From positions 1-40,431 of IMG/VR virus record IMGVR_UViG_3300035698_016663: a stretch of 40,431 nt of DNA, one strand, 5' to 3'. Source of the DNA: a virus. Each line of letters starts with the position of its first letter. Within the stretch, counting starts at the first letter, position 1. Shown in pieces: positions 4,371-28,573 of the stretch. The position numbers and the translations under genes are program-made. Below the pieces are notes generated by a model that was not told where the DNA came from, made no database searches, and was given only the letters and a program-made list of their open reading frames with translations.

Positions 4371-4721
4371 TTATTCTTCCTCGCCCCTCAAAATGCTTTC
4401 CCAATTATCCATTACCATAGCAAACGCATAAGCTAGACCTAATTGTTTGAAAATATTAAGATGTTCTAATTGGCTTAAAAAAAACTCTACTTGTTCCTCT
4501 GGTAGCCCGTTGTCGTCTCCGTTTTCTACAAGTTGCTTGTTATATTCTCTAATCATATTAACTGAGGCTTTAATTAGAGTATGAGAGCCTTTTTGTGATA
4601 TTCTTCTAAAATCTGCCTCGTTATTTAGCCTCTCTAATACCTCTCTACCCTCTTTTTTTACTGTTGCCTCTACGGGGTATTTTTCTTTGTTTACTGTAAA
4701 TTTTGGTTTAAAATGTTTCAT
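4371..4721 (-). CDS. Hypothetical protein, paralogue of 3975-4322
   Basis: This 116-residue helical protein is the upstream member of the tandem pair. It has the shared blocks ERLNNEADFRRISQK, NGLPEEQVEFFLSQLEHLNI and DNWESILRGEEE. Its ATG overlaps the stop of the VWA gene (4718-4721), so the two are translationally coupled, which strengthens a functional link with the MoxR-VWA system. The start also has TTATTAA on the minus strand 10 nt upstream (4732-4739). Confidence 0.65.
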   Translation of the reverse strand: MKHFKPKFTVNKEKYPVEATVKKEGREVLERLNNEADFRRISQKGSHTLIKASVNMIREYNKQLVENGDDNGLPEEQVEFFLSQLEHLNIFKQLGLAYAFAMVMDNWESILRGEEE

Positions 4722-6895: not shown

Positions 6896-6904
6896 ATTTT
6901 TTTG

Positions 6905-9268: not shown

Positions 9269-9738
9269 TTTTCTAATGTTTTAACTCTATTTTTGAGTTT
9301 TTCAATTTCTATTTTTAGCCTCCTGTTTCCTTCGGGTTTTAATAACTCTTTGCGTTGAAATCGGTTGCCTACCACTACGCCCTCCAAATAAGTATAGTCT
9401 AAGTTTAGGTCTACTGTATAGGGGGAGTGAATAGTCGGTACAAATATTTCATACTTGCCATATTGTTCGTTCCATTCTACGACCCCCATAAACTCGTCGT
9501 CGTGGCATTTTCCGTCTATTAAGTCGCCCTCATATATTTCAAGTCCGTTGTTATCCTCTTTGCCCGTGTATAATAAGATTTTGTAATTTCTCGGGTTTCT
9601 CCTTACCTCCTCTAAGTCTTTTTTGTCTATTTTCCAAATTGGTCTACCCTCGCTGTAAAGAAACATTTTTTGGTCTATTTTCAAAATCTTAACTTTTATC
9701 TCTCTAACACAGTTTAAGTTTTGTTTGATAATACTCAT
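9265..9738 (-). CDS. YopX-like phage protein
   Basis: This 157-residue protein has the hallmark central text of the YopX family: KILLYTGKEDNNGLEIYEGD followed by a GVVEWNEQYGKYEI strand pair. YopX proteins are common in phages and prophages and have no settled function. The C-terminal 30 residues form a short coiled coil (LKIEIEKLKNRVKTLEK). The leader has TTATTATTAA 11 nt before the ATG on the minus strand, not a Shine-Dalgarno, and a 10-bp hairpin (AATGCTCTAA/TTAGAGCATT) lies upstream near 9808-9830. Confidence 0.75.
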   Translation of the reverse strand: MSIIKQNLNCVREIKVKILKIDQKMFLYSEGRPIWKIDKKDLEEVRRNPRNYKILLYTGKEDNNGLEIYEGDLIDGKCHDDEFMGVVEWNEQYGKYEIFVPTIHSPYTVDLNLDYTYLEGVVVGNRFQRKELLKPEGNRRLKIEIEKLKNRVKTLEK

Positions 9739-9810
9739 TTTAATTAGTTTTAATAATAAATTGTGAGTGGTTGTCTTGAAACAATTTTGATCGTTGCTCT
9801 CTCAAATGCT

Positions 9811-10062
9811 CTAAAAGTTAGAGCATTGAGATTTTTGCCACTCTGTGAAGTAAAAATCGTCATACTTCTCAGCGTACGCTTCCCACTTGAGGCACTCTAG
9901 CCTCTCGCTTTCCGTTAGCCCGTAAGCTAAGCCCCAGAGGAAGACAAAACCTAAGAGTGCTAATAGACTGACGAATAAAACAATTCTCATTATCTTATCC
10001 CTCAAGTCCATAAGGTTTAACTTCTTAGCCGTGTTCTTAACGGCTTCAAACTTCTTACTCAT
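9811..10062 (-). CDS. Single-TM protein, 83 aa
   Basis: The start at ATG 10062 (MSKKFEAVKNTAKKL) is preferred to the longer frame from 10134, because the extension would translate the 13-bp hairpin at 10096-10130 and ATG 10062 has an ATATTATTAA box 14 nt upstream. One strong TM segment (about residues 27-48, VLFVSLLALLGFVFLWGLAYG) follows a basic N-terminus. The C-terminal 35 residues are acidic and aromatic with two cysteines. Function unknown. Confidence 0.6.
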   Translation of the reverse strand: MSKKFEAVKNTAKKLNLMDLRDKIMRIVLFVSLLALLGFVFLWGLAYGLTESERLECLKWEAYAEKYDDFYFTEWQKSQCSNF

Positions 10063-10141
10063 ATTGTTAAGTGCTTTTAATAATATTGAATTGATTAGAT
10101 AGCAGAAGTCTTGCGTTCTTCTGTTATCTATCAAGCCACTA
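10063..10141 (-). promoter_or_regulatory. Structured leader element, copy A
   Basis: Between the stop at 10139 and the ATG at 10062 the minus strand reads TAGTGGCTTGATA, a 13-bp hairpin (10096-10108 with 10118-10130), CTAATCA and then ATATTATTAA. Copy B at 10585-10666 has the same flanks around a hairpin of different sequence. Confidence 0.55.
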
Positions 10142-10333
10142 GTCTATGTCATTATTAACCGCTTTCACAAACCTTTTTTTATTGAATAAAGCATTGTCAT
10201 TCCTCAGCATTTCAATAAAATCGTCAATTATCATTCTCAATATGTCCGTTGTAGCAGTTGCCTTATATTCATTGTGAGTTTTAATAGCTTTGTTTAATAT
10301 CTTGGCTATTTTGATGTAATCTTGTTTACTCAT
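10139..10333 (-). CDS. Small phage protein, 64 aa
   Basis: This helical protein (KQDYIKIAKILNKAIKTHNE; DILRMIIDDFIEMLRNDN; NKKRFVKAVNNDID) follows a pattern seen in many small hypothetical phage proteins: an N-terminal IAK helix, a central IIDD helix and a closing RF-x-x-AV helix. Function unknown. The leader contains ATATTATTAA 15 nt before the ATG. Confidence 0.6.
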   Translation of the reverse strand: MSKQDYIKIAKILNKAIKTHNEYKATATTDILRMIIDDFIEMLRNDNALFNKKRFVKAVNNDID

Positions 10334-10338
10334 AAGCG

Positions 10339-10584
10339 TTATGTGTTCTTAATAATATCAAGCCTCAATGCTGAGACCCACAATGGGATATTCTGACCTT
10401 TCCTAATATCTACATTGTAAGCTAGGAGGTCTTTTCTTAGTTGTTCTATCCCGAAGCGTTGTCGGGTCGGAATAACATTAAATAACCTAGCCTCAAACTT
10501 AGCCCTCGCACATCTACCGCACTTTAGAGTGGAGAGGGGGTTTAGATAACCGCAGTCTCTACATCTCTTTAAACTATCACTCAT
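10339..10584 (-). CDS. Zinc-ribbon protein, 81 aa
   Basis: The start is ATG 10584 (MSDSLKRCRDCGY); an upstream ATG at 10638 would run through the hairpin of leader copy B. Two knuckles, CRDCG and CGRC, spaced by about 10 residues, form a small zinc ribbon near the N-terminus. The rest is Arg/Leu-rich (RFGIEQLRKDLLAYNV; LWVSALRLDIIKN). Zinc ribbons of this sort bind nucleic acid or RNA polymerase. As the second gene behind the strong early promoter it is a candidate early regulator. Confidence 0.6.
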   Translation of the reverse strand: MSDSLKRCRDCGYLNPLSTLKCGRCARAKFEARLFNVIPTRQRFGIEQLRKDLLAYNVDIRKGQNIPLWVSALRLDIIKNT

Positions 10585-10666
10585 AGTTTTTTTGGACTTA
10601 ATAGTATTGGACTGATTAGGTAGCACAATGTAGTCCAAACATTATGCTACTTATCAAGCCACTAAC
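10585..10666 (-). promoter_or_regulatory. Structured leader element, copy B
   Basis: The minus strand has TAGTGGCTTGATA, an 11-bp hairpin (10620-10630 with 10640-10650, one U-G pair), CTAATCA and ATACTATTAA before the ATG at 10584. The hairpin loop (TTTGGACT on the minus strand) is complementary to AGTCCAAA just before the ATG, so a pseudoknot that covers the start region is possible. Confidence 0.55.
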
Positions 10667-10837
10667 TTAGTTCTGAGACTTAACCCTTTTATTCTTGCCT
10701 AACAAGTTGTTTAGTCTCGCCCCTATCACGACCTCATTATTACATCTATCACAACATCTCCCCTTATTCACGGGCATAGCATTATTACCGAAGCCCGAAA
10801 ACTTTGACCCGCAAATAGAACATACTTTTTTACTCAT
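10667..10837 (-). CDS. Small zinc-ribbon protein, 56 aa, first gene of the early operon
   Basis: The product begins MSKKVCSICGSKFSGFG and has a second knuckle CCDRC, giving a CxxC-x18-CxxC type ribbon, followed by a basic tail (LLGKNKRVKSQN). It is the first gene after the perfect consensus promoter at 10871-10899, with a predicted leader of about 27 nt that contains ATTATTATTAA 12 nt before the ATG. Early expression, small size and a zinc ribbon fit a host-takeover or regulatory peptide, but no specific function can be named. Confidence 0.6.
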   Translation of the reverse strand: MSKKVCSICGSKFSGFGNNAMPVNKGRCCDRCNNEVVIGARLNNLLGKNKRVKSQN

Positions 10838-10870
10838 TGGCTAATTTCTTTAATAATAATCGTATAACTA

Positions 10871-10899
10871 ATTATATTAAATAGAAACAACGCTGTCAA
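10871..10899 (-). promoter_or_regulatory. Perfect-consensus sigma-70 promoter of the left (early) operon
   Basis: The minus strand carries TTGACA (10899-10894), exactly 17 nt, then TATAAT (10876-10871), all 12 consensus bases. Transcription should start near 10864 and read leftward through 10837-2794 to the terminator at 2750-2777. Confidence 0.85.
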
Positions 10900-11053
10900 G
10901 CACTTAGACCGCTGTTAAGGTATAAAGACTAACACAAGCCAATAAAGACACAAAACCCCTAATTTTCGTCAATTTGCTCATAATCAGAGGCTCTAAAATG
11001 CTCTCTAACGGCTTTTAAATAGCAAAGAGGTCTAATCACTCACATACCAAACC

Positions 11054-11096
11054 CTTACATTGTAAAGCCTCTTACATAAGAATAAGCCCCTTACAT
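11054..11096 (+). repeat. Three CTTACAT direct repeats
   Basis: CTTACAT occurs at 11054-11060, 11071-11077 and 11090-11096, at spacings of 17 and 19 bp, with related flanks (TAAAGCC, ATAAGCC). They are iteron-like. Confidence 0.5.
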
Positions 11097-11170
11097 AATA
11101 ACCACGCTATTTGCGACCGCATTTAATTAGCTTATCCCTCGGCTCTCCCTAGCCCCCTCTTTTAGAGTTG

Positions 11171-11250
11171 TACTAGTACAAGTAGTCTAGTACTAGTACC
11201 CTAACCTTAACCCTAGTCCTAGATACTAGTACCTCATACTAGTACTAGTA
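11171..11250. repeat. Cluster of TACTAGTA palindromes
   Basis: The 8-bp palindrome TACTAGTA occurs five times, at 11171, 11191, 11224, 11237 and 11243 (start positions), the last two overlapping. The same palindrome occurs at 2542-2549 in the other control region. Confidence 0.6.
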
Positions 11251-11290
11251 CTATGTACTCATACATATTAGTTATGTTTTAACATATAGA

Positions 11291-11445
11291 GGGGGGAGAT
11301 AGGAGGGGGGAGACACATCAACGCCTCCCTCTTAGCCTTACTCACTCCCCAATAAACCTTTTTTTTAAAAGCTCTTATCCTATATAGGGGGGGTGGGGGG
11401 TGGTCTTTTCTATATATTCGTGTTCTGATATGAAAGGGGTGGGGG
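11291..11445 (+). other. G-rich tracts with quadruplex potential
   Basis: Runs of 6, 6, 7, 6, 4 and 5 G occur at 11291, 11305, 11387, 11395, 11436 and 11441 on the plus strand, in an otherwise AT-rich genome. The 11387-11403 block (7 G, T, 6 G, T, 2 G) and the paired runs at 11436-11445 are the strongest candidates. Confidence 0.45.
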
Positions 11446-14491: not shown

Positions 14492-14859
14492 TAACAAATA
14501 AAATTCGATGTCTAGAGTGTGGGGGCAGATTAAGATTAAGAGTAAATACAAATAGATACGGGAAAAGTGTAGTGGGCGGGTGTACAGAGTGTGATTTCAG
14601 GTTTTTAATGAAACCTAATGAAATGCAATTTGTGCAACCAGATTCTGAAATTTTCACTTTAATTTACGGTTACCATCCAGATGCTCAGATAAAAGCAAAA
14701 GCAAAACTTAAAGCACAACAAGAAGAAATGAGGAAGGTAGCATTAGAAAAGAAGTATGATGAAAAGTATTCTGGAAGTTCTGGTCCAATCAAGGTTACAA
14801 ATAAAGCAGCAGAAAAAAGGTTACTTAAAAAAATAGTATTGGAGGAAGAAATATATTAA
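14488..14859 (+). CDS. Zinc-ribbon protein between terminase and portal
   Basis: This 123-residue protein has an N-terminal zinc ribbon (CLECGG, then GGCTEC about 20 residues later) followed by a Lys/Glu-rich helical region (AQIKAKAKLKAQQEEMRKVA). GGAGGAT directly before ATG 14488 and an ATGA overlap with TerL's stop support this start. Function unknown; its place suggests a role in packaging or head assembly. Confidence 0.65.
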   Translation: MITNKIRCLECGGRLRLRVNTNRYGKSVVGGCTECDFRFLMKPNEMQFVQPDSEIFTLIYGYHPDAQIKAKAKLKAQQEEMRKVALEKKYDEKYSGSSGPIKVTNKAAEKRLLKKIVLEEEIY

Positions 14860-14863
14860 TATC

Positions 14864-16597
14864 ATGGCAAAACAAAGTAAATTAGAAAGGTTGTTATTAA
14901 CAAATCGTCCTACAGAGAGTACAAGCGATAATGATTTGTTAGCTTTGGCTAATCAATGGATTACGGAGGCTGAGCCATATAACAAAGAACTTAGAAAAAT
15001 AGGGAAACAAAATGAACAATATTATTTAGGAAATCAAACTCAAAGAGATAGAGTTCCTAGTGATATGTCAAATGCAGTTCAGAACCATATCTTTATGGGA
15101 GTAGAAACTGCTATTCCAATTATTACTGGAAATCCTCCACAATTTATTGTTGAACCGCCAGATGACTCAGAGTTAGCTAGACAATATACAAATACATTAC
15201 AGAAAGTTTTAGCTGCACAATATGAAACAATAGATGTCAGGACTAAAGGTGAATTTTTAATGAGAAACACTTTAATTTATCGTTATGGTGTTTGGAAAGT
15301 TTTTTGGAATGAGAAATCTAATAATGTTGATGTATCTAATGTGCGTCCTGGCAGAATATATATTCCAAAATATGGAATGTCACAAGATGATTTGCCATAC
15401 ATTCTAGAACAGATTGATATGACATATGGACAGTTCGAAGACATTTTTGGAAAAGCTAAATTAAATAAATTATTGAAAAGTGGTGGAAGCAATACTGCCA
15501 TTAGCGAGGATGAAGACGGTGAAGCAATGATTGATGAGGTTGGAAACAAACAGGTAACTAAGATAAAGGGAGCTATAACGATTTGGGAGATTTGGACTGA
15601 CGATGTAGTGTTCTGGAAGTATGGAGGAATGATTATAGATAAGAAGAAAAATCCATATTTCAAATATGATGATATGGAAGCAAACCATTTTGATTTCCCT
15701 AGGAAACCTTACATTTTCTCTTCAGTTTTTAGAATCGGACGTTCTGTTATTGGAGATACCGATTTGATTCAGCAAACAATTCCAATTCAGGATGTTATCA
15801 ATGTAGTGAACAGACGTATTATTAATCAGGCTAATAAGATGGGAAATGCTGCTTGGTTGATAGACTCTGAAGTTATGACAGAGGAAGAAGCAAGAAGCAA
15901 GATTACTAACTCCCCAGGTTTGATTATCTACGGAGCTGGAGTTGCTAATGAAAATATGATGAGAAGAGATGTCCCACCTCCACTACCAAATTACATCCCA
16001 GAAACCAAGATGATGGCTGAAAAGGCATTTGATAATATATTCGGAACTCACTCTACAACAAGAGGAGAGAGAGGACAACCAGAGACTTTAGGTGGAAGGA
16101 TGTTACTAAAACAGGCAGATATTGGTAGAATTGATTTAGTGGTAAGAGAGTATGAAAGATGTGTAGCTGAATTAGGAAATTGGTTTGTTCAGATGATGAA
16201 GCTATTTTATACTGGTGGCTCAAAGACATTTAGACGTTATGGAGAGGCAGGAATGGAAGTTATCACATTTAAAGTAGATATGATTGAAAGAGGAATTAAA
16301 GTTATTGTGAGGTCTGGAACAACCCTTCCAACAGATGAGTTGTCCAGGAGAAGAGAAGCTATGGAATTGTGGGCAGCAGGTGGAATAGACCCTATTACCT
16401 TATTTGAAAGATTGAAATTTCCGAATCCAGCTGAGACCGCAAATAGGCTAGTATTATATAAAAACAACCAGTTACAAGCAGAGATTCAGGCGAAGTTAGC
16501 ATCACAAGAGAAACCTGGTGGTGCTGAGGGAGGGGCTAATATACCATTGGTAAGCCCCAACAAAGAACTAGCAGAAGGAGAGCAGAGCATCACATAA
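14864..16597 (+). CDS. Portal protein (P22-type)
   Basis: This 577-residue protein resembles P22-type portals in text and length. An N-terminal ALANQWITEAEPYNKELRKI helix precedes the QYYLGNQT segment. A body follows with VETAIPIITGNPPQFIVEPP, FLMRNTLIYRYGVWKVFWNE, an IWEIWTDDVVFWKYGG strand and a long helical stem/crown (residues about 300-500). The C-terminal 40 residues are Gly/Ala/Glu-rich and likely flexible. The dodecameric portal is the DNA channel and head-tail joint. It follows TerL and precedes the scaffold, the usual order. Confidence 0.88.
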   Translation: MAKQSKLERLLLTNRPTESTSDNDLLALANQWITEAEPYNKELRKIGKQNEQYYLGNQTQRDRVPSDMSNAVQNHIFMGVETAIPIITGNPPQFIVEPPDDSELARQYTNTLQKVLAAQYETIDVRTKGEFLMRNTLIYRYGVWKVFWNEKSNNVDVSNVRPGRIYIPKYGMSQDDLPYILEQIDMTYGQFEDIFGKAKLNKLLKSGGSNTAISEDEDGEAMIDEVGNKQVTKIKGAITIWEIWTDDVVFWKYGGMIIDKKKNPYFKYDDMEANHFDFPRKPYIFSSVFRIGRSVIGDTDLIQQTIPIQDVINVVNRRIINQANKMGNAAWLIDSEVMTEEEARSKITNSPGLIIYGAGVANENMMRRDVPPPLPNYIPETKMMAEKAFDNIFGTHSTTRGERGQPETLGGRMLLKQADIGRIDLVVREYERCVAELGNWFVQMMKLFYTGGSKTFRRYGEAGMEVITFKVDMIERGIKVIVRSGTTLPTDELSRRREAMELWAAGGIDPITLFERLKFPNPAETANRLVLYKNNQLQAEIQAKLASQEKPGGAEGGANIPLVSPNKELAEGEQSIT

Positions 16598-16623: not shown

Positions 16624-16695
16624 TTATAGAACGGGACTCAACCCGTAAAAATGATTAAAGTCAACAAAGACGTTAAAATGTAACCATTAAAATAT

Positions 16696-17244
16696 ATGGC
16701 AGATGAAACAAAGAAAATTGAAGCGGAAGAGGGAGAACCATCTACTCCAAACGTTGGGGAAGAGGATAAAGGAGGTAAAGGCACCCCAAAGGACGTTCCT
16801 TACGCAAGGTTACAAGAGGTTATCAAGGAAAGGAACGAACTTAAAGAACAGATTTCCAAAAATGCTCCTAAGGAAGATTTGAAGGAAAAGGTGAAATTAA
16901 CCATGCAAGAGATTGCTAAAGAGGAATCAACAAGTAAGATTGAAAAGGAAGCTGCTAGAAAGGAAACTTTCAAGAAGCTTAAAGAAGTTTATGGCGAATT
17001 CGATGAAAAGAAATTAGTCGAAATTGTCGCTGAGTATGGTGTTCCTGGTGAAGAAGGTAAGGTAGATTGGGATAAGGCTATAGCCTTGATGGGGAAGATT
17101 GAAAAATTAACTCCACCAAAGTTAAAACCTACCAAAATGCCAGATTCTAGCACTAAGGAGGAGGGTGAGGCAGGTGTCTATGACATCACCAACAAACCTC
17201 TTCATAAGATTCTCGAAGATTCCAAAAAGGAGATAAGTGAATAA
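16696..17244 (+). CDS. Head scaffolding protein
   Basis: This 182-residue protein is very rich in Lys and Glu, with a disordered N-terminus (EAEEGEPSTPNVGEEDKGGK), the VPYARLQEVIKERNELKEQ coiled-coil entry typical of phage scaffolds, and a charged helical C-terminus. Position between portal and coat protein is diagnostic. Scaffolds template prohead assembly and leave before DNA entry. No protease domain is seen here or nearby. Confidence 0.8.
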   Translation: MADETKKIEAEEGEPSTPNVGEEDKGGKGTPKDVPYARLQEVIKERNELKEQISKNAPKEDLKEKVKLTMQEIAKEESTSKIEKEAARKETFKKLKEVYGEFDEKKLVEIVAEYGVPGEEGKVDWDKAIALMGKIEKLTPPKLKPTKMPDSSTKEEGEAGVYDITNKPLHKILEDSKKEISE

Positions 17245-17267
17245 TTATTAACTTTTTTGGTAAACGT

Positions 17268-18272
17268 ATGGCTTTTAGTGATTTTGTTACAACGATTACC
17301 CAAGATAGATTTCTTCCTAAAGTAACAGATAACATTTTGAATGGTAATGTTCTTTTAGAAATGTTCTTGGGCAATTACAGACCATGGGGTTCAGGACATC
17401 AGTTAGAAGTACCTCTAAAGTACCAAACATCAACTTCTGGTGGTTCTTATGCAGGATTTGACTCTATGTCAACTTCTCAAAAGAATACCAGAGTATTGGC
17501 TAAATTTGACCCTAAACAGAACTACTTTTCAGTAGTTATCAACGGAATCCAACAGGCAGTTAACAAGGGCGATGCTGCTATGTTAGATTTAGTTGCTGTG
17601 GAAATGGCGTCAGTTCAGGCTGATATGGCTGATGGATTAGGTACTCAAATGTACTCAGATGGTACTGGCAATTCAAATAAGGACATCACAGGTTTAGCTG
17701 CTGCAATCGATGACGGTGCAGTAGTTGCTACCTACGCTGGTTTGCTTAGGTCAACTTACACAACTTGGGTAAGTGATTTAGACGACTCATCCAATTCAAT
17801 TACAGTTGCAGAAATGCAAGCTAGTTTTGATGCGGCTAAACACGGCAATGATGCTCCTACTTTTATTGTTACAACTCCTGCAATTTGGACAACTTACGAA
17901 GGTCTCTTAATGGCTACCATCAATTATGCATCTCAAGTTCAGGGCTATCCTAAGTTAACTAGATTCGGTGTCAACAGAAATGCTGGTACTGGACAAACTG
18001 GTGACCTTGGGTTTGACTCCTTGTTCTTTAGAGGTATTCCAGTCGTCTCTGACGAAAAGTGTACTTCTGGATACATGTATATATTGAATGGCAAACATTT
18101 ATGGTTTAGTGTTCTTCCTCATTCCAGACATCCATTGATTAAAAATGGATTCGCTTGGACTGGGTTTAAAGAACCTACAAACCAGGACGCTATCGTAGGT
18201 CAATTCCTGTTGTATGGTCAATTGATTACAGATTCATGTCGTACAAGTGCTTTCCTAACTGGTAAATCATAA
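17268..18272 (+). CDS. Major capsid protein (HK97 fold)
   Basis: This 334-residue protein follows the scaffold and precedes the decoration protein. It has an N-terminal VLLEMFLGNYRPWGSGHQLE and PLKYQTSTSGGSYAGFDSM that recur in a family of HK97-fold coat proteins, an alpha/beta P-domain-like middle (VEMASVQADMADGLGTQMYS), a TPAIWTTYEGLL segment, and a C-terminal LFFRGIPVVSDEKC strand. Expected to form the icosahedral shell. Start is ATG 17268 after an A/T-rich leader without Shine-Dalgarno. The lack of an N-terminal delta domain fits the separate scaffold gene. Confidence 0.85.
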   Translation: MAFSDFVTTITQDRFLPKVTDNILNGNVLLEMFLGNYRPWGSGHQLEVPLKYQTSTSGGSYAGFDSMSTSQKNTRVLAKFDPKQNYFSVVINGIQQAVNKGDAAMLDLVAVEMASVQADMADGLGTQMYSDGTGNSNKDITGLAAAIDDGAVVATYAGLLRSTYTTWVSDLDDSSNSITVAEMQASFDAAKHGNDAPTFIVTTPAIWTTYEGLLMATINYASQVQGYPKLTRFGVNRNAGTGQTGDLGFDSLFFRGIPVVSDEKCTSGYMYILNGKHLWFSVLPHSRHPLIKNGFAWTGFKEPTNQDAIVGQFLLYGQLITDSCRTSAFLTGKS

Positions 18273-18276
18273 AATT

Positions 18277-18759
18277 ATGGCACAAGACGTAAGACAGTTG
18301 TCAGGAGAATCTAGGATTTTCGCTGATGACACCTCTGTTGTTGACACCACCCAACAGTACCCATTTGGTTTCAGAGCTAAAGACACATTAGGTAATGAGT
18401 TTATTTATCTAACAGGTGTGGCTTCAACCATTGCTGGGTCTTGGGTTACTTATGATGAATTAGGAATTACTACTCTTTTAGGTGCCAATGCTATTGGACC
18501 TGTTGCTGTCGCTATGGCTGCAATTGATAGTACTTCTGAATACGGTTGGTATTGTATTTATGGTACAGTTGAGGGCGACTATTCGGCTAACTGTGCTGCT
18601 GACGTAACTATTGGTTACGAAACAGCAGCAGGACATGTCGGAGATGGTCAAGCAGCTGGAGATACCATCTATGGTGCAGTAAGTAGAGACACAATAACTA
18701 CTGCTGGACTTGGAACGACACAAATCAACTATCCATCTGTGGATGACAACAGTAATTAG
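18277..18759 (+). CDS. Capsid decoration/stabilisation protein
   Basis: This 160-residue beta-rich, Ala/Gly/Thr-rich protein is encoded 4 nt after the coat gene. The sequence YGWYCIYGTVEGDYSANCAA, then a GYETAAGHVGDGQAAGDTI block and a closing TQINYPSVDD, resembles small head proteins next to coat genes in many phages. It probably sits on the capsid surface and stabilises it. Confidence 0.65.
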   Translation: MAQDVRQLSGESRIFADDTSVVDTTQQYPFGFRAKDTLGNEFIYLTGVASTIAGSWVTYDELGITTLLGANAIGPVAVAMAAIDSTSEYGWYCIYGTVEGDYSANCAADVTIGYETAAGHVGDGQAAGDTIYGAVSRDTITTAGLGTTQINYPSVDDNSN

Positions 18760-20348: not shown

Positions 20349-20636
20349 ATGGCAAACTTTGGATTTGGAGATACGTCTCTGACATTTACAACATCTAGTT
20401 CAAGCACTACGTCTACTACTTCTAGTACTACTTCTAGTACTACTTCTAGTACAACAAGTACTACAACTAGTGCAACTTCAACAACAAGTACTACTTCAAG
20501 TACTACATCAAGTACTACTTCTAGTACAACAAGTAGCACAACAAGTACTACGACTAGTGCAACGACTACAACAAGTAGCACTACTTCCAGTACAACAACT
20601 AGTAGCACAACTAGTACTACTACTACTGGACCATAA
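20349..20636 (+). CDS. Mucin-like Ser/Thr-repeat protein, 95 aa
   Basis: After a 13-residue head (MANFGFGDTSLTF) almost every residue is Ser or Thr, with Ala only in TTTSAT units and a final TGP. There is no globular domain. Such sequence is an extended, potentially heavily O-glycosylated stalk. The same higher-order motif (STTSTTTSATSTTSTTSSTT) recurs in the long protein at 26795-28573, and the sugar cassette lies between them. It may be a virion surface decoration, an acceptor for the encoded glycosyltransferases, or a remnant of a partial duplication of the larger gene. Confidence 0.7.
   Translation: MANFGFGDTSLTFTTSSSSTTSTTSSTTSSTTSSTTSTTTSATSTTSTTSSTTSSTTSSTTSSTTSTTTSATTTTSSTTSSTTTSSTTSTTTTGP
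20388..20633 (+). repeat. Ser/Thr codon repeat tract, copy 1
   Basis: About 245 nt of near-exclusive ACN, AGY and TCN codons encode the repeat of the 95-residue protein. Synonymous codons are mixed (AGT, TCA, TCT; ACA, ACT, ACG). Confidence 0.85.
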
Positions 20637-20659
20637 ATAACTTCACATAAGGAGGAAAA

Positions 20660-21925
20660 ATGAAGAAAAAAATTGGTATTTTAACGACTTTCTACGAATG
20701 GAACAAGTCTTACAGCTTAACTTCAGTAGTAGAAAATCAACTTCTATCTCTTTTAAAGAATGGATATGCACCAGTTCTATTGGTTCACGATAATTTCAAA
20801 GATGAAACTATTGTGCCATCTGGGGTAGAAGTTCGCAAAGTAGTTCCAAGATTCACGTTGGTTGATTATGCGGGGAACCAACAAGTTGATAAAGATTTTG
20901 AGGAACAAGTGAAAACAGCAAAGGAGGCGTTTGAAGCTCATTTACAAGATATAGACGTGGTTTTAACCCATGACCTTATCTTCCAAGGATGGTTTCTGCC
21001 TTACAACGTAGCTATGCGACAAGCTCAACCTAATCTAAAATGTCGTTGGTTACATTGGGTGCATTCAGCTCCATCACCAAGACCAGCAAACTTAGCATAT
21101 CCACATGACTGCAGATATAAGATGATGCCTAATTCTAAGCTCATCTATATGAATCATTATGATACTCTCAAATTAGCAGAAATGTATGCTGGTAGGATTG
21201 ATGATATAAGAGTTGTTTTTAATCCATTAGACCCAAGAAGTTTCTATAAGTTACATCCATTAGTTCATAAGGTCATTGACAAATATGACTTATTGAGTGC
21301 TGATATAGTGGATGTATACCCAGTTTCATCAACAAGATTTGGGGGTAAACAAGTTAAGAAAGTAATACAAGTTTTGGCAGAAATTAAGAAACAAGGACGT
21401 TCAGTTAGATTTGTGTGTCCAAATGCACACGCTAACGCAGACAGAGAAAAGAAGGCAGTAGAAGAATTACTGCACTACGGAATTGAACGAGGTTTAACTA
21501 GAGAGGAAATGATTTTTACCTCTTTTGAGGATACGCCAGATTATGAATCTGGGATTCCACACGAAGCGGTTAGAGATTTCTTTCTCTTATCAAATCTGTT
21601 TATCTTCCCTACTTTATCTGAAAATTGTCCCTTAATTCTTTTGGAGGCTGCTATGGCAAAGTGTTTACTAGTTCTTAATAAGAATTTCCCACCATTAAGA
21701 GATTTCTTTGGAAAAGATGCATTATATTTCGAATTCGGTTCTCTAGTTCAGAATATTAGCTACAATAATGAAGAACAGTTCTTCAGAGATGTAGGATTAA
21801 TAATTATAGCTGAATTAGAAAAGAACAGACCATTAAATGCATTTAAAACTATTAAGCAGAAATTTAACTACGATTTCGTGTTCAAGAAAATGATGGAACC
21901 ATTATTTTTTGAGCAATGGGATTAA
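20660..21925 (+). CDS. GT4-type glycosyltransferase
   Basis: This 421-residue GT-B enzyme has an N-terminal acceptor domain that starts KKIGILTTFYEW and includes VVLTHDLIFQGWFLPYN. The C-terminal nucleotide-sugar domain has the EX7E signature of retaining GT4 enzymes: ENCPLILLE, Glu321 and Glu329, within FIFPTLSENCPLILLEAAMA. A conserved RFGGKQVKKV donor-phosphate segment is near 226-235. Acceptor and sugar are unknown. AAGGAGG stands 6 nt before the ATG, so it is well translated. It is the first gene of the sugar cassette and follows the Ser/Thr repeat gene by 23 nt. Confidence 0.85.
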   Translation: MKKKIGILTTFYEWNKSYSLTSVVENQLLSLLKNGYAPVLLVHDNFKDETIVPSGVEVRKVVPRFTLVDYAGNQQVDKDFEEQVKTAKEAFEAHLQDIDVVLTHDLIFQGWFLPYNVAMRQAQPNLKCRWLHWVHSAPSPRPANLAYPHDCRYKMMPNSKLIYMNHYDTLKLAEMYAGRIDDIRVVFNPLDPRSFYKLHPLVHKVIDKYDLLSADIVDVYPVSSTRFGGKQVKKVIQVLAEIKKQGRSVRFVCPNAHANADREKKAVEELLHYGIERGLTREEMIFTSFEDTPDYESGIPHEAVRDFFLLSNLFIFPTLSENCPLILLEAAMAKCLLVLNKNFPPLRDFFGKDALYFEFGSLVQNISYNNEEQFFRDVGLIIIAELEKNRPLNAFKTIKQKFNYDFVFKKMMEPLFFEQWD

Positions 21926-21935
21926 CCACAAAAAT

Positions 21936-22703
21936 ATGGCAGATAAATCAATAACAAATCTAGAATACAAAGAACATCCAGAGGTAGACTACACCAAAAG
22001 GAAACAATGGTTGAGGAATGTAGATATGTTTAAGAAGACTCATCAGATTTTACAACCAACCACAAGAGCAATCTACCAATACATTAAAGATGTTTGTACA
22101 GACCACGTAAAGAACCACCCACAATATCCTAAATTTAATTGGAAACCAAAGATTATAGACATAGGATGTGGAGGGGGATATGGTTCAAATGTTCTGTCTC
22201 AAGAAGCTGACTTTTGTTGGGGGATTGATATAGACAAAGAAAGTATTGCTTGGGCAAAGCAAGTTTTCACTAGACACAAGAATAATATCTATTATTCATC
22301 TCAATTAACTTTTGATGTAATGGATATTACTAATGAGCCTAGAGAATTAATGGCTTTTGATATAGCAGTATGTGTCGAAGTAATTGAACACATTGAAGAT
22401 TATGAGAAGGTGATTGAGTTTATTAAGAGGGTTTGTAAGAAGCATAAAAAAACTGGTAAATACTTAGAACCACCTCAAGGAACTCAAATTTACATTTCTT
22501 CACCAAATAGGAATCATCCTAAGATAAGTAATGATAGTCCTAAAAACAAAATGCACGTTAGAGAGTGGACTCCAGCTGAGATGTATGACATCTTAACAAA
22601 GCACTTTAAGTATGTTGTTCTAATGGACTGTCACGGCAAACCATTAGAATTAGATGACAAAACTAGTTCAATCCTATTATTTAAGTGCGAGACACCAAAA
22701 TGA
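21936..22703 (+). CDS. Class I SAM methyltransferase of the sugar cassette
   Basis: This 255-residue protein has motif I IIDIGCGGGYG at 73-83, the acidic GIDID at 96-100, and FDIAVCVEVIEHIEDYEKV as motif IV and post-region, typical of the UbiE/type 11 family. Within a cluster of glycosyltransferases an O-methyltransferase that caps or modifies a sugar is the likely role. The ATG at 21936 (MADKSITNL) is preferred over an upstream in-frame start that overlaps the previous gene. Its TGA overlaps the next ATG. Confidence 0.78.
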   Translation: MADKSITNLEYKEHPEVDYTKRKQWLRNVDMFKKTHQILQPTTRAIYQYIKDVCTDHVKNHPQYPKFNWKPKIIDIGCGGGYGSNVLSQEADFCWGIDIDKESIAWAKQVFTRHKNNIYYSSQLTFDVMDITNEPRELMAFDIAVCVEVIEHIEDYEKVIEFIKRVCKKHKKTGKYLEPPQGTQIYISSPNRNHPKISNDSPKNKMHVREWTPAEMYDILTKHFKYVVLMDCHGKPLELDDKTSSILLFKCETPK

Positions 22704-23866
22704 AAACACCAATAGTATCAGTCATAATTCCAGCAAGAAACGAGTTCCCTCAGATAGTTTTCACAGTATATTCCATTATTCATGATTTAGAAACATTTTT
22801 AGAACCATCAGAATTTGAGATAATTATTTGTAATAATTGTCCCTCTGATGAAGTCTATCCTAGAAGGGCGTTAGGAGGAAGCATCGATTATTTGATGCCA
22901 AGGGGAATATATTGGAACAGAGTATTGAAAGTGCTATATGACCCAATAGCTGGGAATCACAGCACCAGGAACAAAGGTGTTGATATAGCAAGAGGTAAAT
23001 ACATTTTCTTTAGTGACGCACATATGGCGTATAGAAGAGGATATTTTCAAAAGATGATTAAAGCTATAGACGATACTGGAGGATTAGTCCACGGAACCAT
23101 AGGATGGATGGGAGCATATCCAGTCGGAGGTTCAATGGGTTACCAGTATACAATGAAGTTGGGCGAGGAAATTAAGGGAACCTGGAATAATTACAAACTT
23201 GTAGATGACCCATTCTACATTCCGCTACAAGGGCATTGTTGCCTAGGAATGACTAGAAAACAATTCATAGAGTTTGGAGGTTATCCAGAATATCACAGAT
23301 GTTATGGGGGTGGAGAATTCTATCTTGATATGAAATGGTGGATGTTTGGTTCTACTGTATCAGTAGTACCAGGAGCCGTTGCTTATCATCTGAATGCTCC
23401 AAGAGGATATAGTTATCATCACGATGACTATATTCACAATATCTTCTTAATAGGACATGCCTTGGGAATGGAGGGTTGGGCAGAAAGAGCCTACCTTAAC
23501 TGGATGAGAAAAGGGACTGGAGAGATTGTTACTAGATTATGGGAAGAAGCTAGAGAGGAAGCTAAGGAAGACAAGGAGTTCATTAAATCAAAGACTGTTA
23601 AAACTTTCAATGAATTATTGGTAGAGAGACCTTGGGACAAGTTGAATGAAGCAAAATATGGTAAGTCAAATTCTTCAATGTTAATTTTTCATGATACTTG
23701 GATTCCACTAATTAAAGGAACTCCTGCTGAAAAGCTATACAACGAATCACAACTTCAGAAGGATTTAGCCAAATTCATTAATGAGAATTTAGCAGATAAA
23801 GTTTACAAGAGAGGATATAAGCCACCTGTTCCAAAAAGAATAATTGAACACAAAAAAGATGGCTAA
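22700..23866 (+). CDS. GT2 family glycosyltransferase
   Basis: This 388-residue GT-A enzyme opens with VSVIIPARNEFPQIV, the GT2 nucleotide-binding start, followed by ICNNCPSDE and NHSTRNKGVDIARGKYIFFS. The metal-binding motif reads DAH (106-108) where DxD is usual. The region HCCLGMTRKQFIEFGGYPEY and the GGGEFYLDMKWW segment match the acceptor and catalytic-base part (ED-type). The C-terminal 130 residues are a helical extension. It is coupled by ATGA to the methyltransferase. Confidence 0.82.
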   Translation: MKTPIVSVIIPARNEFPQIVFTVYSIIHDLETFLEPSEFEIIICNNCPSDEVYPRRALGGSIDYLMPRGIYWNRVLKVLYDPIAGNHSTRNKGVDIARGKYIFFSDAHMAYRRGYFQKMIKAIDDTGGLVHGTIGWMGAYPVGGSMGYQYTMKLGEEIKGTWNNYKLVDDPFYIPLQGHCCLGMTRKQFIEFGGYPEYHRCYGGGEFYLDMKWWMFGSTVSVVPGAVAYHLNAPRGYSYHHDDYIHNIFLIGHALGMEGWAERAYLNWMRKGTGEIVTRLWEEAREEAKEDKEFIKSKTVKTFNELLVERPWDKLNEAKYGKSNSSMLIFHDTWIPLIKGTPAEKLYNESQLQKDLAKFINENLADKVYKRGYKPPVPKRIIEHKKDG

Positions 23867-24602
23867 AAAATTAAGTATATTAATTTCGGCTTACAATAAG
23901 AATGATTTAGCAGCAGCACACGTGAGAGAATGTATGAATTCTACCAGAATGCCAGATGAGATAATCGTTGTAAACGATGGTGGAGCAATAGATTTGAGGG
24001 ACAAAATAGCAGCCTTAGATATTAAAACAAGAGTTGTTTATGCTAGGGTTCTCGAAGATATCCCCTGGAATTACACAGGAGCTAGGAACCTAGGGTTCTG
24101 GCTATCAACTGGAGATTATGTAGTAATTGAAGACACAGACCAAGTTCCATTTCCAGAATTCTACGAAGAGGCTATAAAGTATTTAGAAGAAAATCCTGAA
24201 TGTGGAAAAGTATGTTCAACTGGTCGAGAAAAGGTCTTATCAAACGACATCATCAATAAAGATAAGAAGGATTGGAAGAAGTTAGGATATACTGCCTATC
24301 ACAGAGATACGGGAATGCATAGAAGGGAAGTCTATTTGAAACTTAAAGGCTATGACGAGAGATTTGCGGGAGCTTATGCCTGGTGTTCAACTGACTGGCA
24401 GAGAAGAATAGAGAGGGCTGGTTACAAAATTGGTAATATTGGAAAATACTACACAGTAGTAGACGGAGATACAGAGGGGCTTACTAGGCAAAAGAGTTAC
24501 AGAAATTGGGAAATGGCTAGAGAAGCAGATGGTCATATCCAAGGTCCAATAGGAATTTTAAACTTTAAATACGAATATGAAGTCTTTGAACCTAAGGAAT
24601 GA
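23859..24602 (+). CDS. GT2 family glycosyltransferase with galactosyltransferase-like C-terminus
   Basis: This 247-residue protein begins MAKKLSILISAYNKND and has NYTGARNLGFWLSTGDYVVI then EDTDQVP with the DxD at 92-94. The C-terminal part FAGAYAWCSTDWQRRIERAG resembles the Glyco_transf_7C region. It overlaps the previous gene by 8 nt. The donor and acceptor are unknown; with the other two transferases it could build a short oligosaccharide. Confidence 0.82.
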   Translation: MAKKLSILISAYNKNDLAAAHVRECMNSTRMPDEIIVVNDGGAIDLRDKIAALDIKTRVVYARVLEDIPWNYTGARNLGFWLSTGDYVVIEDTDQVPFPEFYEEAIKYLEENPECGKVCSTGREKVLSNDIINKDKKDWKKLGYTAYHRDTGMHRREVYLKLKGYDERFAGAYAWCSTDWQRRIERAGYKIGNIGKYYTVVDGDTEGLTRQKSYRNWEMAREADGHIQGPIGILNFKYEYEVFEPKE

Positions 24603-25134
24603 TGATGTATTACAAATTAATCCAGTTTCAGCACAACAAAGAAATGCTATAAGAGAAAAAAGTTTGTTTGAAAAATTCTTAGAAGCAGATAAGATTTTTG
24701 AAGAATATAATTATCCTTGCACATTAACAGTTTTAGCAGAAGGTATTGACAAAAACCCAGAATGGGTACGTCATATCAAAGAGAATTTAGACCGTTACAA
24801 CATTGAATTACACGGATGGTCTCATGATAAGTATATCAGAATGTCAGAAGAAAATGGTGAAAAAGAATTAGCTAGAGCCATCAGAAAGATAGAAAAAACA
24901 TTCGGTATTAAAGTCTCAATTTGGTACGTTCCATATGGGAGGGGAAATGTACCAGAATGGGGACATAGAGTTTGTAACAGATTAGGAATTAAAATGGATG
25001 TTCCAACAATGAAATGTTTACCTTACTTCTGGAAAAGAAAACCAGAAAGGAAAGAAATCAATTTTCATTATTGGGATGATAGACAGGTTAGGCAAATTAA
25101 AAAAATAATAAAGGAAATATGTCAAAACAAATAG
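24577..25134 (+). CDS. NodB-type polysaccharide deacetylase homologue
   Basis: This compact 185-residue protein retains the main NodB motifs: an N-terminal RNDD (Asp9, Asp10), the metal-binding HGWSH (His79, His83) and WYVPYGRGN near 116-124 in place of RxPYG. It would remove acetyl groups from an N- or O-acetylated sugar. Usual NodB domains are close to 200 residues, so it is complete but minimal, with no signal peptide, in keeping with an intracellular or virion-sugar substrate. It overlaps its neighbours on both sides (26 and 16 nt). Confidence 0.75.
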   Translation: MKSLNLRNDDVLQINPVSAQQRNAIREKSLFEKFLEADKIFEEYNYPCTLTVLAEGIDKNPEWVRHIKENLDRYNIELHGWSHDKYIRMSEENGEKELARAIRKIEKTFGIKVSIWYVPYGRGNVPEWGHRVCNRLGIKMDVPTMKCLPYFWKRKPERKEINFHYWDDRQVRQIKKIIKEICQNK

Positions 25135-25916
25135 CTATTATAGGAAGTGAGGGCTATGTTGGAAAAGGTATGGTGGAGTTCTTCGGAGAACACTACAGCC
25201 TTGTAAAATATGACCCAATTCTAGGCGGAGACAACGCCAGTAAGAAGGAAGTCAATAAATGCATTTTAGCAGTTGTTGGAGTTCCTACAGAGATGAATGA
25301 AGACCGTTCCGCAAACATTTCTATCGTGGAGGAAGTAGTTAGTTGGATTGAAGCACCAGTAATCTGGATTCGTTCAACTGTGCCTCCAGGCACATGTGAA
25401 ATGTTAAGTAAGAAGTATAAGAAAAGAATAGTATTCTCCCCAGAATATCTTGGAGAGAGTAAATATTGGACAGCTTGGAAATTTCACAACAGCGAGAAAG
25501 AGTGTCCTTGGTTCATTTTAGGAGGAGATAAGGAAGACACTCAGTACATTCTCGATTTAATAGTCCCGATTGCTGGTCCTTCAAAACATTATAGGCAAAT
25601 GAGTGTATTAGAAGCTGAAGTTGCCAAGTATATGGAAAATATGTACTTCGCAATGAAGGTAACATTTGCTAATGAGATGAAAAAAGCGTGTGATGCCCTC
25701 GGAGCCAATTACTGGCAAGTAAGAGATGGTTGGGGATTAGACCCAAGAGTAGACAAAATGCACACAGCAGTATTCCCAAACAAACCAGGCTTTGGAGGGA
25801 AATGCTTACCAAAGGACTTAAACGCATTTATCGCAGCCTGTGAGAAAGCAGGATACGACCCATTGTTCTTAAAAGAAATTTGGGAATCTAATAAAAGATT
25901 TAGAGGCGATGAGTAA
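25119..25916 (+). CDS. Short UDP-glucose/GDP-mannose dehydrogenase-like enzyme
   Basis: This 265-residue protein has an N-terminal Rossmann fold (IAIIGSEGYVG, Gly9/Gly12/Gly15), STVPPGTCE, FSPEYLGES, a central EVAKYMEN helix and the catalytic-Cys motif GFGGKCLPKD with Cys229. These match the UDP-sugar 6-dehydrogenase family. Normal members exceed 380 residues; here the sequence ends after the central domain and lacks the C-terminal UDP-binding domain, so the substrate pocket must be completed by a dimer partner or differs. Likely reaction: NAD-dependent oxidation of a UDP-hexose to a uronic acid. It overlaps the epimerase gene by 8 nt. Confidence 0.8.
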   Translation: MSKQIAIIGSEGYVGKGMVEFFGEHYSLVKYDPILGGDNASKKEVNKCILAVVGVPTEMNEDRSANISIVEEVVSWIEAPVIWIRSTVPPGTCEMLSKKYKKRIVFSPEYLGESKYWTAWKFHNSEKECPWFILGGDKEDTQYILDLIVPIAGPSKHYRQMSVLEAEVAKYMENMYFAMKVTFANEMKKACDALGANYWQVRDGWGLDPRVDKMHTAVFPNKPGFGGKCLPKDLNAFIAACEKAGYDPLFLKEIWESNKRFRGDE

Positions 25917-26781
25917 TATAATCGTAACAGGAGGTGCGGGGTTTATTGCCTCGCACTTGGTAGACAGACTTATTGAGTTAGGACATGATGTCTTGGTCAT
26001 TGACAATTTAAGTACGGGAAAAAAGGAAAACATTAATTCTAAAGCTCAATTTTTAGAATTTGATGTACAAAATGTTCTTTTAACAGAAGAAATAGATTAC
26101 ATTTTTCACTTAGCAGCTTTAGCTAGTGTTCCAGAATCTGTAGATAAACCAAGAGAAGCACACATTTCTAATGTAGATGGTACCTTCAATATATTAAATC
26201 AGGCTAGATTGGCTGGAGTTAAGAAAGTTATCTTCGCTTCATCCTCAGCAATTTATGGAGACCAAAAATTACCATATTCTGAAGACCTACCAAACCTACC
26301 AAAAAGCCCTTACGCCTTGCATAAGGCAATTGGAGAAGATTATTTAAAATTATTTGATGAATTATATGATTTACCGACCCTCTCTCTTAGATTTTTTAAC
26401 GTATATGGGAATAGAGCAGACCCTAATAGCCAGTATTCGTTGGTAATATCTAAGTTTTTGAAGCTAAAGAAAGAGGAAAAGCCGTTAACAATTTACGGGG
26501 ACGGAGAACAAAGCAGAGATTTCGTTTACGTAGATGACGTAATAGATGCTTTAATAGCAGCTATGGACTCAGACGTAAGAAACAAAGTAATTAATATCTG
26601 TAGTGGAAAGAGAACTTCAATTAATGAAATAGCAGATATTATAGGAGGAGAAAAGAAGTATCTTAAAAAAAGGAAGGGAGATGCATTACACACACAAGGA
26701 AACAATTTTTTAGCATTGCAATTATTGGGATGGTCACCAAAAGTATCAATTAAAAAGGGAATTAAGAAAATAAAAATTTAA
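25909..26781 (+). CDS. Extended SDR NAD-dependent epimerase/dehydratase
   Basis: This 290-residue protein has the GGAGFIA cofactor motif at 8-14, IFHLAALASVPES, FASSSAIYG, the catalytic YALHK (Tyr135, Lys139), and RFFNVYGNRADPN, all typical of UDP-hexose 4-epimerase-like and UDP-glucuronate epimerase or decarboxylase enzymes. With the dehydrogenase upstream, a UDP-Glc to UDP-GlcA to epimer or pentose route is a reasonable inference. It is a little shorter than bacterial GalE. It closes the sugar cassette. Confidence 0.85.
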   Translation: MSNIIVTGGAGFIASHLVDRLIELGHDVLVIDNLSTGKKENINSKAQFLEFDVQNVLLTEEIDYIFHLAALASVPESVDKPREAHISNVDGTFNILNQARLAGVKKVIFASSSAIYGDQKLPYSEDLPNLPKSPYALHKAIGEDYLKLFDELYDLPTLSLRFFNVYGNRADPNSQYSLVISKFLKLKKEEKPLTIYGDGEQSRDFVYVDDVIDALIAAMDSDVRNKVINICSGKRTSINEIADIIGGEKKYLKKRKGDALHTQGNNFLALQLLGWSPKVSIKKGIKKIKI

Positions 26782-26794
26782 GGGAGGGAAACGA

Positions 26795-28573
26795 GTGATA
26801 GATAAAACATTATTATTACAATTTGCAAATACACCAATTGGGAGGGAGTATTTTGGGGTGCCAGAAAGAAAAGAAGTCATTAAAATTACTGATGGTTCTG
26901 TTCATTATTATACAGGAAAATTATCTAAAAATCCTTTAAATCCTGAAGCAAAAGTAATTTGTTCTCAAGGAACTCCTGGTGGAAGAAATATAAAAAGAGT
27001 TAAACAATTATTAAAGATATTTCCATCTATAATTGAATTAGCTTTAATGGGACAAAAATATCCTTTAGTATTTTTAATGGCTGATACAGGATATAATTCA
27101 CCAACGGCAACAGGGGGAACTTACAATCAATGGACTAATCCTGCTAATGCTTATGCTAGTAATGATACTTATGCTACAAGAACAGACCCAAGCACTACTA
27201 AGTATAAACAAAGTTATGAAACATTTGGCTTTGGAGTCCCCGTTGGGGCGACAATAGACGGCATAGAGGGTAGTTACGAAGGTAAATGTTCAGCAAACAG
27301 TAAGCCGTTTTATGTTGGAGTCAAGAGAAATACGACCTTTAATGCTACTTTTAAACAATTACTTTTTAGTATCGCAGAAAGCACTCAGACAGCAGGGGGA
27401 CCTGAAGATATATGGGATGCGTGGGCAGAAGACATATGGTCAAGTAGTGATTTCGCAGACGGAACTTTTGCGGCAAGTATTTCAACCACGGGAAGTGAAG
27501 GCGGATATACTTATTCTCTTGATCATATACAAATAAAAGTTTATTATACCGTTGTTACAACTACTAGTACCACATCAACTACTAGTAGTACTACTAGTAC
27601 ATCTACGAGTACTACTACCAGCTCTACAACTAGTTCAACTACATCCACCACAACTTCAGCTACTTCAACAACTTCTACAACTAGTTCTACTACCTCAACA
27701 ACAACATCAGCTACTACTACAACAAGTACTACTTCTTCAACTACATCTAGTACTACTAGCTCAACAACATCAACTACAACTTCAGCTACATCTACTACGA
27801 GTACTACATCATCTACAACATCAAGCACCACATCTTCTACAACCTCTAGTACTACAAGCACAACTACAAGTGCTACATCTACAACTTCCACAACCTCCAG
27901 CACAACTACCTCAACAACAACTTTCATAACTACCACAACTTCTTCGACTACTAGTACTACTACAAGTGCTACTTCAACAACTTCTACAACTAGTTCAAAT
28001 ACTTCAACTACATCTACGACTAGTTCAACAACATCTAGTACAACAAGTTCAACTACTAGCAGTACTACAAGTACTACATCTAGTACTACTTCAAGTACTA
28101 CATCAAGTACTACTTCTAGTACTACTTCTACTACAAGTTCAACTACATCTTCTACTACATCTAGCACAACAAGTTCTACAACAAGTTCTACTACAAGTAC
28201 TACATCTAGTACTACATCTAGCACTACTTCAACTACTAGTTCAACTACAAGTTCAACAAGTTCAACAACTTCCACTACTACAAATACCAGTTCTACAACT
28301 TCAAGTACTACCAGTTCTACTACATCAACAACAACCAGTTCTACTACATCAAGTACAAGTTCTACAACATCCAGCACTACTAGTTCAACTACAAGCAGTA
28401 CCACCTCTTCAACCACCTCAACCTCTAGTACGACTTCAACATCAACTTCAACATCAACATCCACTTCTACATCAAGTACAACCACAGCTCCACCATTCAT
28501 GGTAGCTCAGTTGGAGAAAGAAGATTTTAAACCAATACTTGATATTGATATTAATTGGAGGGAGAATAGATAA
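26795..28573 (+). CDS. Large virion protein with beta domain and mucin-like Ser/Thr stalk
   Basis: This 592-residue protein starts with GTG at 26795 behind a strong GGGAGGG. Residues 1-105 form a basic N-terminal region. About 110-252 look like a beta-sandwich domain of a type common in phage proteins (NQWTNPANAYASNDTYAT; FGFGVPVGATIDGIEG; YSLDHIQIKVYY). Residues 254-564 are almost purely Ser/Thr with periodic TTTSAT. The last 28 residues (MVAQLEKEDFKPILDIDINW) may anchor it in the virion or act in assembly. The stalk is the obvious acceptor for the adjacent glycosylation enzymes. It lies directly before the adaptor gene, so a surface appendage or host-binding role is likely. Confidence 0.75.
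   Translation: MIDKTLLLQFANTPIGREYFGVPERKEVIKITDGSVHYYTGKLSKNPLNPEAKVICSQGTPGGRNIKRVKQLLKIFPSIIELALMGQKYPLVFLMADTGYNSPTATGGTYNQWTNPANAYASNDTYATRTDPSTTKYKQSYETFGFGVPVGATIDGIEGSYEGKCSANSKPFYVGVKRNTTFNATFKQLLFSIAESTQTAGGPEDIWDAWAEDIWSSSDFADGTFAASISTTGSEGGYTYSLDHIQIKVYYTVVTTTSTTSTTSSTTSTSTSTTTSSTTSSTTSTTTSATSTTSTTSSTTSTTTSATTTTSTTSSTTSSTTSSTTSTTTSATSTTSTTSSTTSSTTSSTTSSTTSTTTSATSTTSTTSSTTTSTTTFITTTTSSTTSTTTSATSTTSTTSSNTSTTSTTSSTTSSTTSSTTSSTTSTTSSTTSSTTSSTTSSTTSTTSSTTSSTTSSTTSSTTSSTTSTTSSTTSSTTSTTSSTTSSTSSTTSTTTNTSSTTSSTTSSTTSTTTSSTTSSTSSTTSSTTSSTTSSTTSSTTSTSSTTSTSTSTSTSTSTSSTTTAPPFMVAQLEKEDFKPILDIDINWRENR
27557..28487 (+). repeat. Ser/Thr codon repeat tract, copy 2
   Basis: About 930 nt of Ser/Thr codons form a direct repeat with the 20388-20633 tract. 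Synonymous codon choice is strongly mixed. The antisense strand stays open over most of the tract as a by-product. Confidence 0.85.

Follow-up and report, generated by a model that had tools for sequence, protein, structure and literature searches.

Organization of the locus

The window, by which we mean the whole stretch of DNA analysed here, is a 40,431-base IMG/VR virus record (IMGVR_UViG_3300035698_016663) of an uncultured bacterial virus, available only as a metagenome contig. Its early block lies on the minus strand and its late block on the plus strand, the latter running from terminase, portal, scaffold, major capsid protein and head genes to Ser/Thr and sugar genes, followed by further structural genes; the portal belongs to phrog_156 and matches the SU10/P22-like portals of Pfam. 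Within this structural operon, at 20349-28573, two genes encoding Ser/Thr tracts (ST-short and ST-long) enclose seven sugar genes, all on the plus strand (Table 1). These are, in order, a GT4-like glycosyltransferase, a methyltransferase (MT), two GT2 glycosyltransferases (GT2a and GT2b), a NodB-type deacetylase, a shortened UDP-sugar dehydrogenase and an SDR epimerase. Neighbouring cassette genes overlap by 4-26 bases, and gaps of 23 and 13 bases separate the cassette from the flanking tract genes. Pfam assigns all seven enclosed genes, as GT4 (weakly, below cut-off), methyltransferase, two GT2, Polysacc_deac_1, UDPG_MGDP_dh and NAD-dependent epimerase.

A first-pass annotation, made from sequence alone, had described two Ser/Thr genes around seven sugar genes, on one strand, mostly overlapping and within the late operon, and this description held. 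Its estimate of Ser/Thr-only tracts of about 80 and 310 residues also held (85 and 317 residues measured, with 95% Ser/Thr), as did its enzyme families, which Pfam supported, with the UDP-sugar dehydrogenase corrected to a form lacking the C-terminal domain. The first GT2 gene was initially listed from the GTG at 22685; the ATG at 22700 is a more likely start, and GT2a residue numbers are counted from it.

Table 1. Genes of the Ser/Thr-tract locus and their assignments
Feature	Position	Strand	Description
ST-short	20349..20636	+	95 aa: 8-residue N-terminus and 85-residue Ser/Thr tract; follows a head-region gene; predicted O-glycan acceptor
GT4-like glycosyltransferase (core)	20660..21925	+	Phage-specific family with E-x7-E motif; weak Pfam PF00534
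SAM-dependent methyltransferase, MT (core)	21909..22703	+	PF08241, E 1.6e-14
GT2a (core), polypeptide-GalNAc-transferase-like GT-A enzyme	22700..23866	+	D106-x-H108 and H230 metal ligands (inferred from alignment); GGGE206
GT2b, second GT2 (accessory)	23844..24602	+	Nearest in PDB: chondroitin/heparosan synthases; 52% identical copy in G002
NodB-type polysaccharide deacetylase (accessory)	24577..25134	+	PF01522, E 2.4e-12; copies in G045 and G050
Short nucleotide-sugar dehydrogenase (accessory)	25119..25916	+	PF03721 and PF00984; TIGR03026 E 1e-39, below cut-off
SDR nucleotide-sugar epimerase (accessory)	25909..26781	+	PF01370, E 1.5e-59; TviC 7e-49 and GalE 1e-47, both below cut-off
ST-long	26795..28573	+	592 aa: an N-terminal region precedes the Ser/Thr tract (317 residues), with an APPF...KPILDI tail at the C-terminus; predicted acceptor stalk

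Ser/Thr-tract proteins

The tract of ST-short occupies residues 9-93 (33 Ser, 48 Thr and 4 other residues) and that of ST-long residues 248-564 (128 Ser, 174 Thr and 15 other). Ser and Thr make up 95% of both, against a background of 14% in other late proteins; these two are the only window ORFs with such a tract, and a comparable one was found in 0/30 shuffled windows. All Ser and Thr codons occur in the tracts, with Ser encoded by TCN as well as AGY codons, and the synonymous choice matches the usual preferences of the genome, indicating that the Ser/Thr bias is maintained at the protein level and is not a simple DNA repeat. Expansion of a DNA repeat as the sole origin of the tracts was thus rejected because their codons are mixed. 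An antisense ORF at 27544-28500 was also discarded, as a by-product of the ST-long tract.

The same head-region gene precedes ST-short in close relatives, and genes of the ST-short type occur in records G002, G005, G008, G017, G035, G045, G046, G052, G055, G056 and G058. ST-long proteins carry varied N-terminal domains, followed by the tract and by a C-terminal tail that is conserved and includes a PILDIK-like motif; the G002 counterpart, for instance, has a different middle domain and a similar tail. This motif is present in 15/15 long Ser/Thr proteins of this phage lineage versus 8/504 control proteins, although it was defined on the same long sequences in which it was counted. Read most simply, ST-long would comprise a head and a stalk followed by a tail that serves for anchoring or recognition, with either end a possible docking site on the particle. 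The PILDIK-like C-termini (28490-28570 in the window) could be docking or enzyme-recognition tags.

Conserved core and accessory genes

Comparison of relatives showed that GT4, MT and GT2a (20660-23866) form a conserved core, whereas the genes between the tracts are otherwise variable; the three were taken as the core because they keep their order in relatives even though relocated. MT is 40-66% identical to its copies in relatives. GT4 was recovered at 44 viral loci; the genome collection gave only generic, partial GT4 matches and no cellular homologue of GT2a, so that neither a host nor a cellular ancestor can be named. A PDB search with GT4 gave no informative relative, and single-sequence searches of cultured phages returned no match to GT4 or ST-long and a single, distant one to GT2a.

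Among the accessory genes, the dehydrogenase (265 aa) retains only the N-terminal and central domains, together with the GGKC motif, and its activity is uncertain. Dehydrogenases of 247-279 aa are found in the window phage and in G002, G008, G035, G047, G050, G051, G055 and G056. The suggestion, in the first-pass annotation, that the glycan might contain uronic acid is consequently its weak part, since it rests on this short two-domain form, which is outside the conserved core. The epimerase is nearest to the TviC/GalE C4-epimerases, and it might fit the supply of a galacto-configured UDP-sugar, although it is also accessory.

GT2a resembles polypeptide GalNAc-transferases

Pfam alone classifies GT2a as a plain GT2. 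When a GT2a family profile was compared with PDB, however, polypeptide GalNAc-transferases (GalNAc-Ts) were the top matches, with E 1e-8 for a profile of 5 sequences and E 1e-13 for one of 16. These matches span the catalytic domain, whereas ordinary GT2 enzymes score lower and mostly over the N-terminal half; the GalT1 structure 5hea was also a weaker match than GalNAc-Ts. Used as a control, GT2b retrieved chondroitin/heparosan synthases and not GalNAc-Ts. An AlphaFold2 model built from the 16 sequences reached a pLDDT of 85, replacing a poor first model from 5 sequences (pLDDT 60), and all 50 PDB matches listed in a fold search with GT2a were GalNAc-Ts (E 4e-16 to 7e-13), with moderate fold similarity (TM about 0.5-0.6) and 15-19% identity.

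Residues D106, H108, H230 and E206 are invariant across the 16 family members. The first three align with the metal-ligand positions of GalNAc-Ts, corresponding to D276, H278 and H414, the Mn2+ ligands of Toxoplasma gondii GalNAc-T3 (PMC11074326); this is a sequence match, and metal binding by GT2a itself is inferred. The ricin-type lectin domain of GalNAc-Ts was not found in GT2a by Pfam, and the C-terminal part of the AlphaFold2 model is helical. Because of the missing lectin domain and the moderate fold similarity, we call the enzyme GalNAc-T-like and claim neither GT27 membership nor a GalNAc donor. Fold and motifs show that GT2a specifically resembles peptide O-glycosyltransferases; transfer of GalNAc from UDP-GalNAc to Ser/Thr remains an inference.

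A distant GT2a homologue lies at 1567-2565, between terminase and portal, in the cultured Tunturiibacter phage Tunturi_4 (L378, PP885687.1; host phylum Acidobacteriota). This phage has no real Ser/Thr tract, an ST-like ORF having been rejected as antisense over an annotated gene, indicating that GT2a alone does not imply a tract. Tunturi_4 may be a tractable laboratory relative. Separately, GT2a ORFs of 667-706 aa, with an insertion of about 300 aa, occur in G056 (14523-16565, plus strand), G058 (16669-18672, minus strand) and L250; the G056 copy has a weak LAGLIDADG match, and the insertion is probably an intein within the GalNAc-T-like gene.

Linkage between the core and the tracts

In L008 (record G002), whose capsid protein is 48% identical to that of the window, a short Ser/Thr gene, a cassette of different content and a long Ser/Thr gene precede the same downstream structural gene. 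The near-complete G002, G008, G017 and G035 carry GT4, MT and GT2a in the same order, on the opposite strand and after the structural genes, with 40-55% identity, and in most of the fully checked relatives the core lies elsewhere in the genome while the Ser/Thr genes are still present. Among capsid-family records of at least 20 kb, tracts occur in 10/10 core-positive and 0/13 core-negative phages. Core-positive phages form one clade in the capsid tree (where G065, also core-positive, is displayed unlabelled), so this contrast represents few independent events and not 23. In three records, the major capsid gene is split into two ORFs by an intervening ORF (L233 from G018, 5540-7315; G055, 9369-11324; L011, 6344-8308), possibly reflecting group I introns with homing endonucleases.

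A scan of IMG/VR with a GT4 profile identified 44 loci, some of them near-copies of each other. Tracts were found within 10 kb of GT4 in 27 of the 44, and 12 more appeared once full records were retrieved, giving 39/44 records, and 25/26 of those longer than 17 kb. Of the five records without tracts, four are fragments shorter than 17 kb and the fifth is truncated where its contig ends. The profile included, among its 16 sequences, two (L162 and L202) that had originally been found by a Ser/Thr DNA pattern. As controls, tracts were present in 1/17 epimerase-anchored loci and in 0/76 capsid relatives without the core.

Core and tracts also coexist in G047 and G050, on a backbone with an unrelated capsid protein (phrog_371), and in further backbones, namely large phages (L335-L338, 113-277 kb) and phages of the L340/L341 type, with the Ser/Thr gene next to GT4 or one gene away. 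The T7-like phage G059 has GT2a and Ser/Thr genes without GT4. The presence of the pairing on several unrelated backbones indicates that the association outlasts backbone change. The reverse does not hold: loci chosen by a Ser/Thr DNA pattern showed little enrichment for a nearby GT4 or GT2a (5/62 versus 1/58), and many viral Ser/Thr tracts thus have no such core nearby.

According to the first-pass annotation, its reading would be refuted if repeats and cassette occurred independently in related phages; this comparison did not refute it, the linkage of GT4, MT and GT2a being near absolute. The search of viral contigs for co-occurrence that it had proposed showed, in turn, that the linkage to the GT4 core holds even with the enzymes in another operon or on an unrelated backbone.

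A putative mucin-type glycosylation module

The data above establish the tracts, the families of the enzymes, the linkage between core and tracts and, for GT2a, a GalNAc-T-like fold with the matching motifs. From these, we consider it likely that the phage encodes a module for mucin-type O-glycosylation of its own Ser/Thr stalks on the virion; the acceptor, the identity of the sugar and the virion location are inferred. The tract proteins would be made late, together with the remaining structural proteins. Glycosylation would take place in the host cytoplasm, GT2a attaching the first sugar to Ser/Thr and GT4 extending it, or the reverse, and MT would cap or modify the sugar, while the strain-variable GT2b, deacetylase, dehydrogenase and epimerase would change sugar supply and identity. 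The predicted outcome is densely glycosylated stalks, with ST-short in the head region and one or more spike-like ST-long near the tail genes; such stalks could shield or extend the particle or help it bind surfaces.

It is by inference that we take the tract Ser/Thr as acceptors, assign to GT2a the start of the glycan or an essential part in it, assign to MT the methylation of the sugar and place the products in virions; the order of steps and the benefit to the phage are inferred as well. The lack of glycan or virion data and of a proven initiation enzyme limits the mucin-type reading. The earlier proposal that the phage builds a methylated glycan on its own virion stalks is hence supported by the linkage and by the type of GT2a, whereas glycosylation, presence in the virion and the sugar are still inferred. 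A bolder version, which in our judgement could as well prove wrong as right, is a mucin-type system in viruses of bacteria, in which a GalNAc-T-like enzyme modifies, inside the bacterial cytoplasm, a Ser/Thr stalk that its own virus encodes. GT4, MT, GT2a and the ST-tract acceptors would then make up a portable unit that has moved between unrelated phage backbones, with the glycan diversified by swappable sugar genes.

Alternative explanations

Surface sugars of the host are a frequent target of phage glycosyltransferases, and the cassette enzymes might likewise alter the host envelope polysaccharide, for serotype conversion or receptor masking, the tracts being unglycosylated flexible linkers that are neighbours by chance. 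The deacetylase, dehydrogenase and epimerase, all of polysaccharide-pathway type, would agree with this. However, core and tracts co-occur almost absolutely, even from different operons, GT2a is like peptide glycosyltransferases and unlike polysaccharide polymerases, the cassette of the window is enclosed by two structural genes of the late operon, and Pfam identified no GtrA/GtrB-like or flippase family among the cassette proteins. Host-envelope modification is possible, but we regard it as unlikely, for it leaves unexplained the persistent association of core and tracts across different operons and backbones.

Less probable still is that the core glycosylates another virion protein, such as the capsid or tail tube, and that the tracts are unrelated spacers. 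Capsids and tail tubes of mycobacteriophages are glycosylated (as cited in PMC12619734), and the distant GT2a homologue of Tunturi_4 lies between terminase and portal without a tract; nevertheless, members of the GT4 family accompany Ser/Thr tracts on backbones whose capsid genes are unrelated. Hypermodification of phage DNA by the glycosyltransferases, known in other phages (Pyle et al. 2024, as cited in PMC12619734), seems very unlikely: searches of the window proteins, which covered only part of the small early ORFs, revealed no base-hydroxylating or thymidylate-synthase-like gene, the linkage is to protein tracts, and the nearest structures are protein glycosyltransferases.

Relation to known systems

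The putative mucin-type module shares with animal and apicomplexan mucin-type O-glycosylation (GalNAc-Ts, CAZy GT27) the Ser/Thr-rich acceptors and a GT-A enzyme with a DxH...H metal site. It differs in that GT2a is phage-encoded, lacks the lectin domain and any membrane or Golgi stage, shows only 15-19% identity, and is accompanied by a phage-specific GT4 and a methyltransferase. In serine-rich repeat adhesin loci of streptococci and staphylococci (Fap1, GspB; GtfA/GtfB and further transferases), dedicated glycosyltransferases are also encoded beside a Ser-rich acceptor (PMC11983588); the phage acceptor, in contrast, is a late protein, the putative initiating enzyme belongs to a different family, and Pfam and NCBIfam searches found no accessory Sec export genes (SecA2/SecY2, Asp) in the cassette.

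Mycobacteriophages encode glycosyltransferases that modify virion proteins (Freeman et al. 2023, via citing papers), the acceptors being capsid and tail-tube C-termini (PMC12619734). The window phage differs in its dedicated Ser/Thr-tract proteins, GalNAc-T-like enzyme and variable sugar genes; in it and its relatives the glycosyltransferases are linked to structural genes, and a glycan on a virion protein is inferred. Morons that glycosylate host O-antigen or DNA share generic GT2/GT4 and sugar-nucleotide enzymes, but those of the window are tightly linked to Ser/Thr-tract structural genes and not to membrane-anchored Gtr or DNA-modifying genes. Virion glycosylation itself is therefore already known, from few cases with capsid or tail tube acceptors, and what is new is the combination; the literature searched, which leaves most subscription papers out of scope, contains no earlier description of such a phage module.

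Dedicated acceptors and enzymes that travel together predict a class of 'mucin-coated' phages, and GT2a hints at a soluble prokaryotic enzyme similar to those that initiate mucin glycosylation, bearing on the origin of GalNAc-transferases and on tools for glycoengineering. Outside the locus, in the early region of the window (4718-7858, minus strand), a VWA-domain protein adjoins an AAA_5/CbbQ-like ATPase, forming a pair of the MoxR-VWA type.
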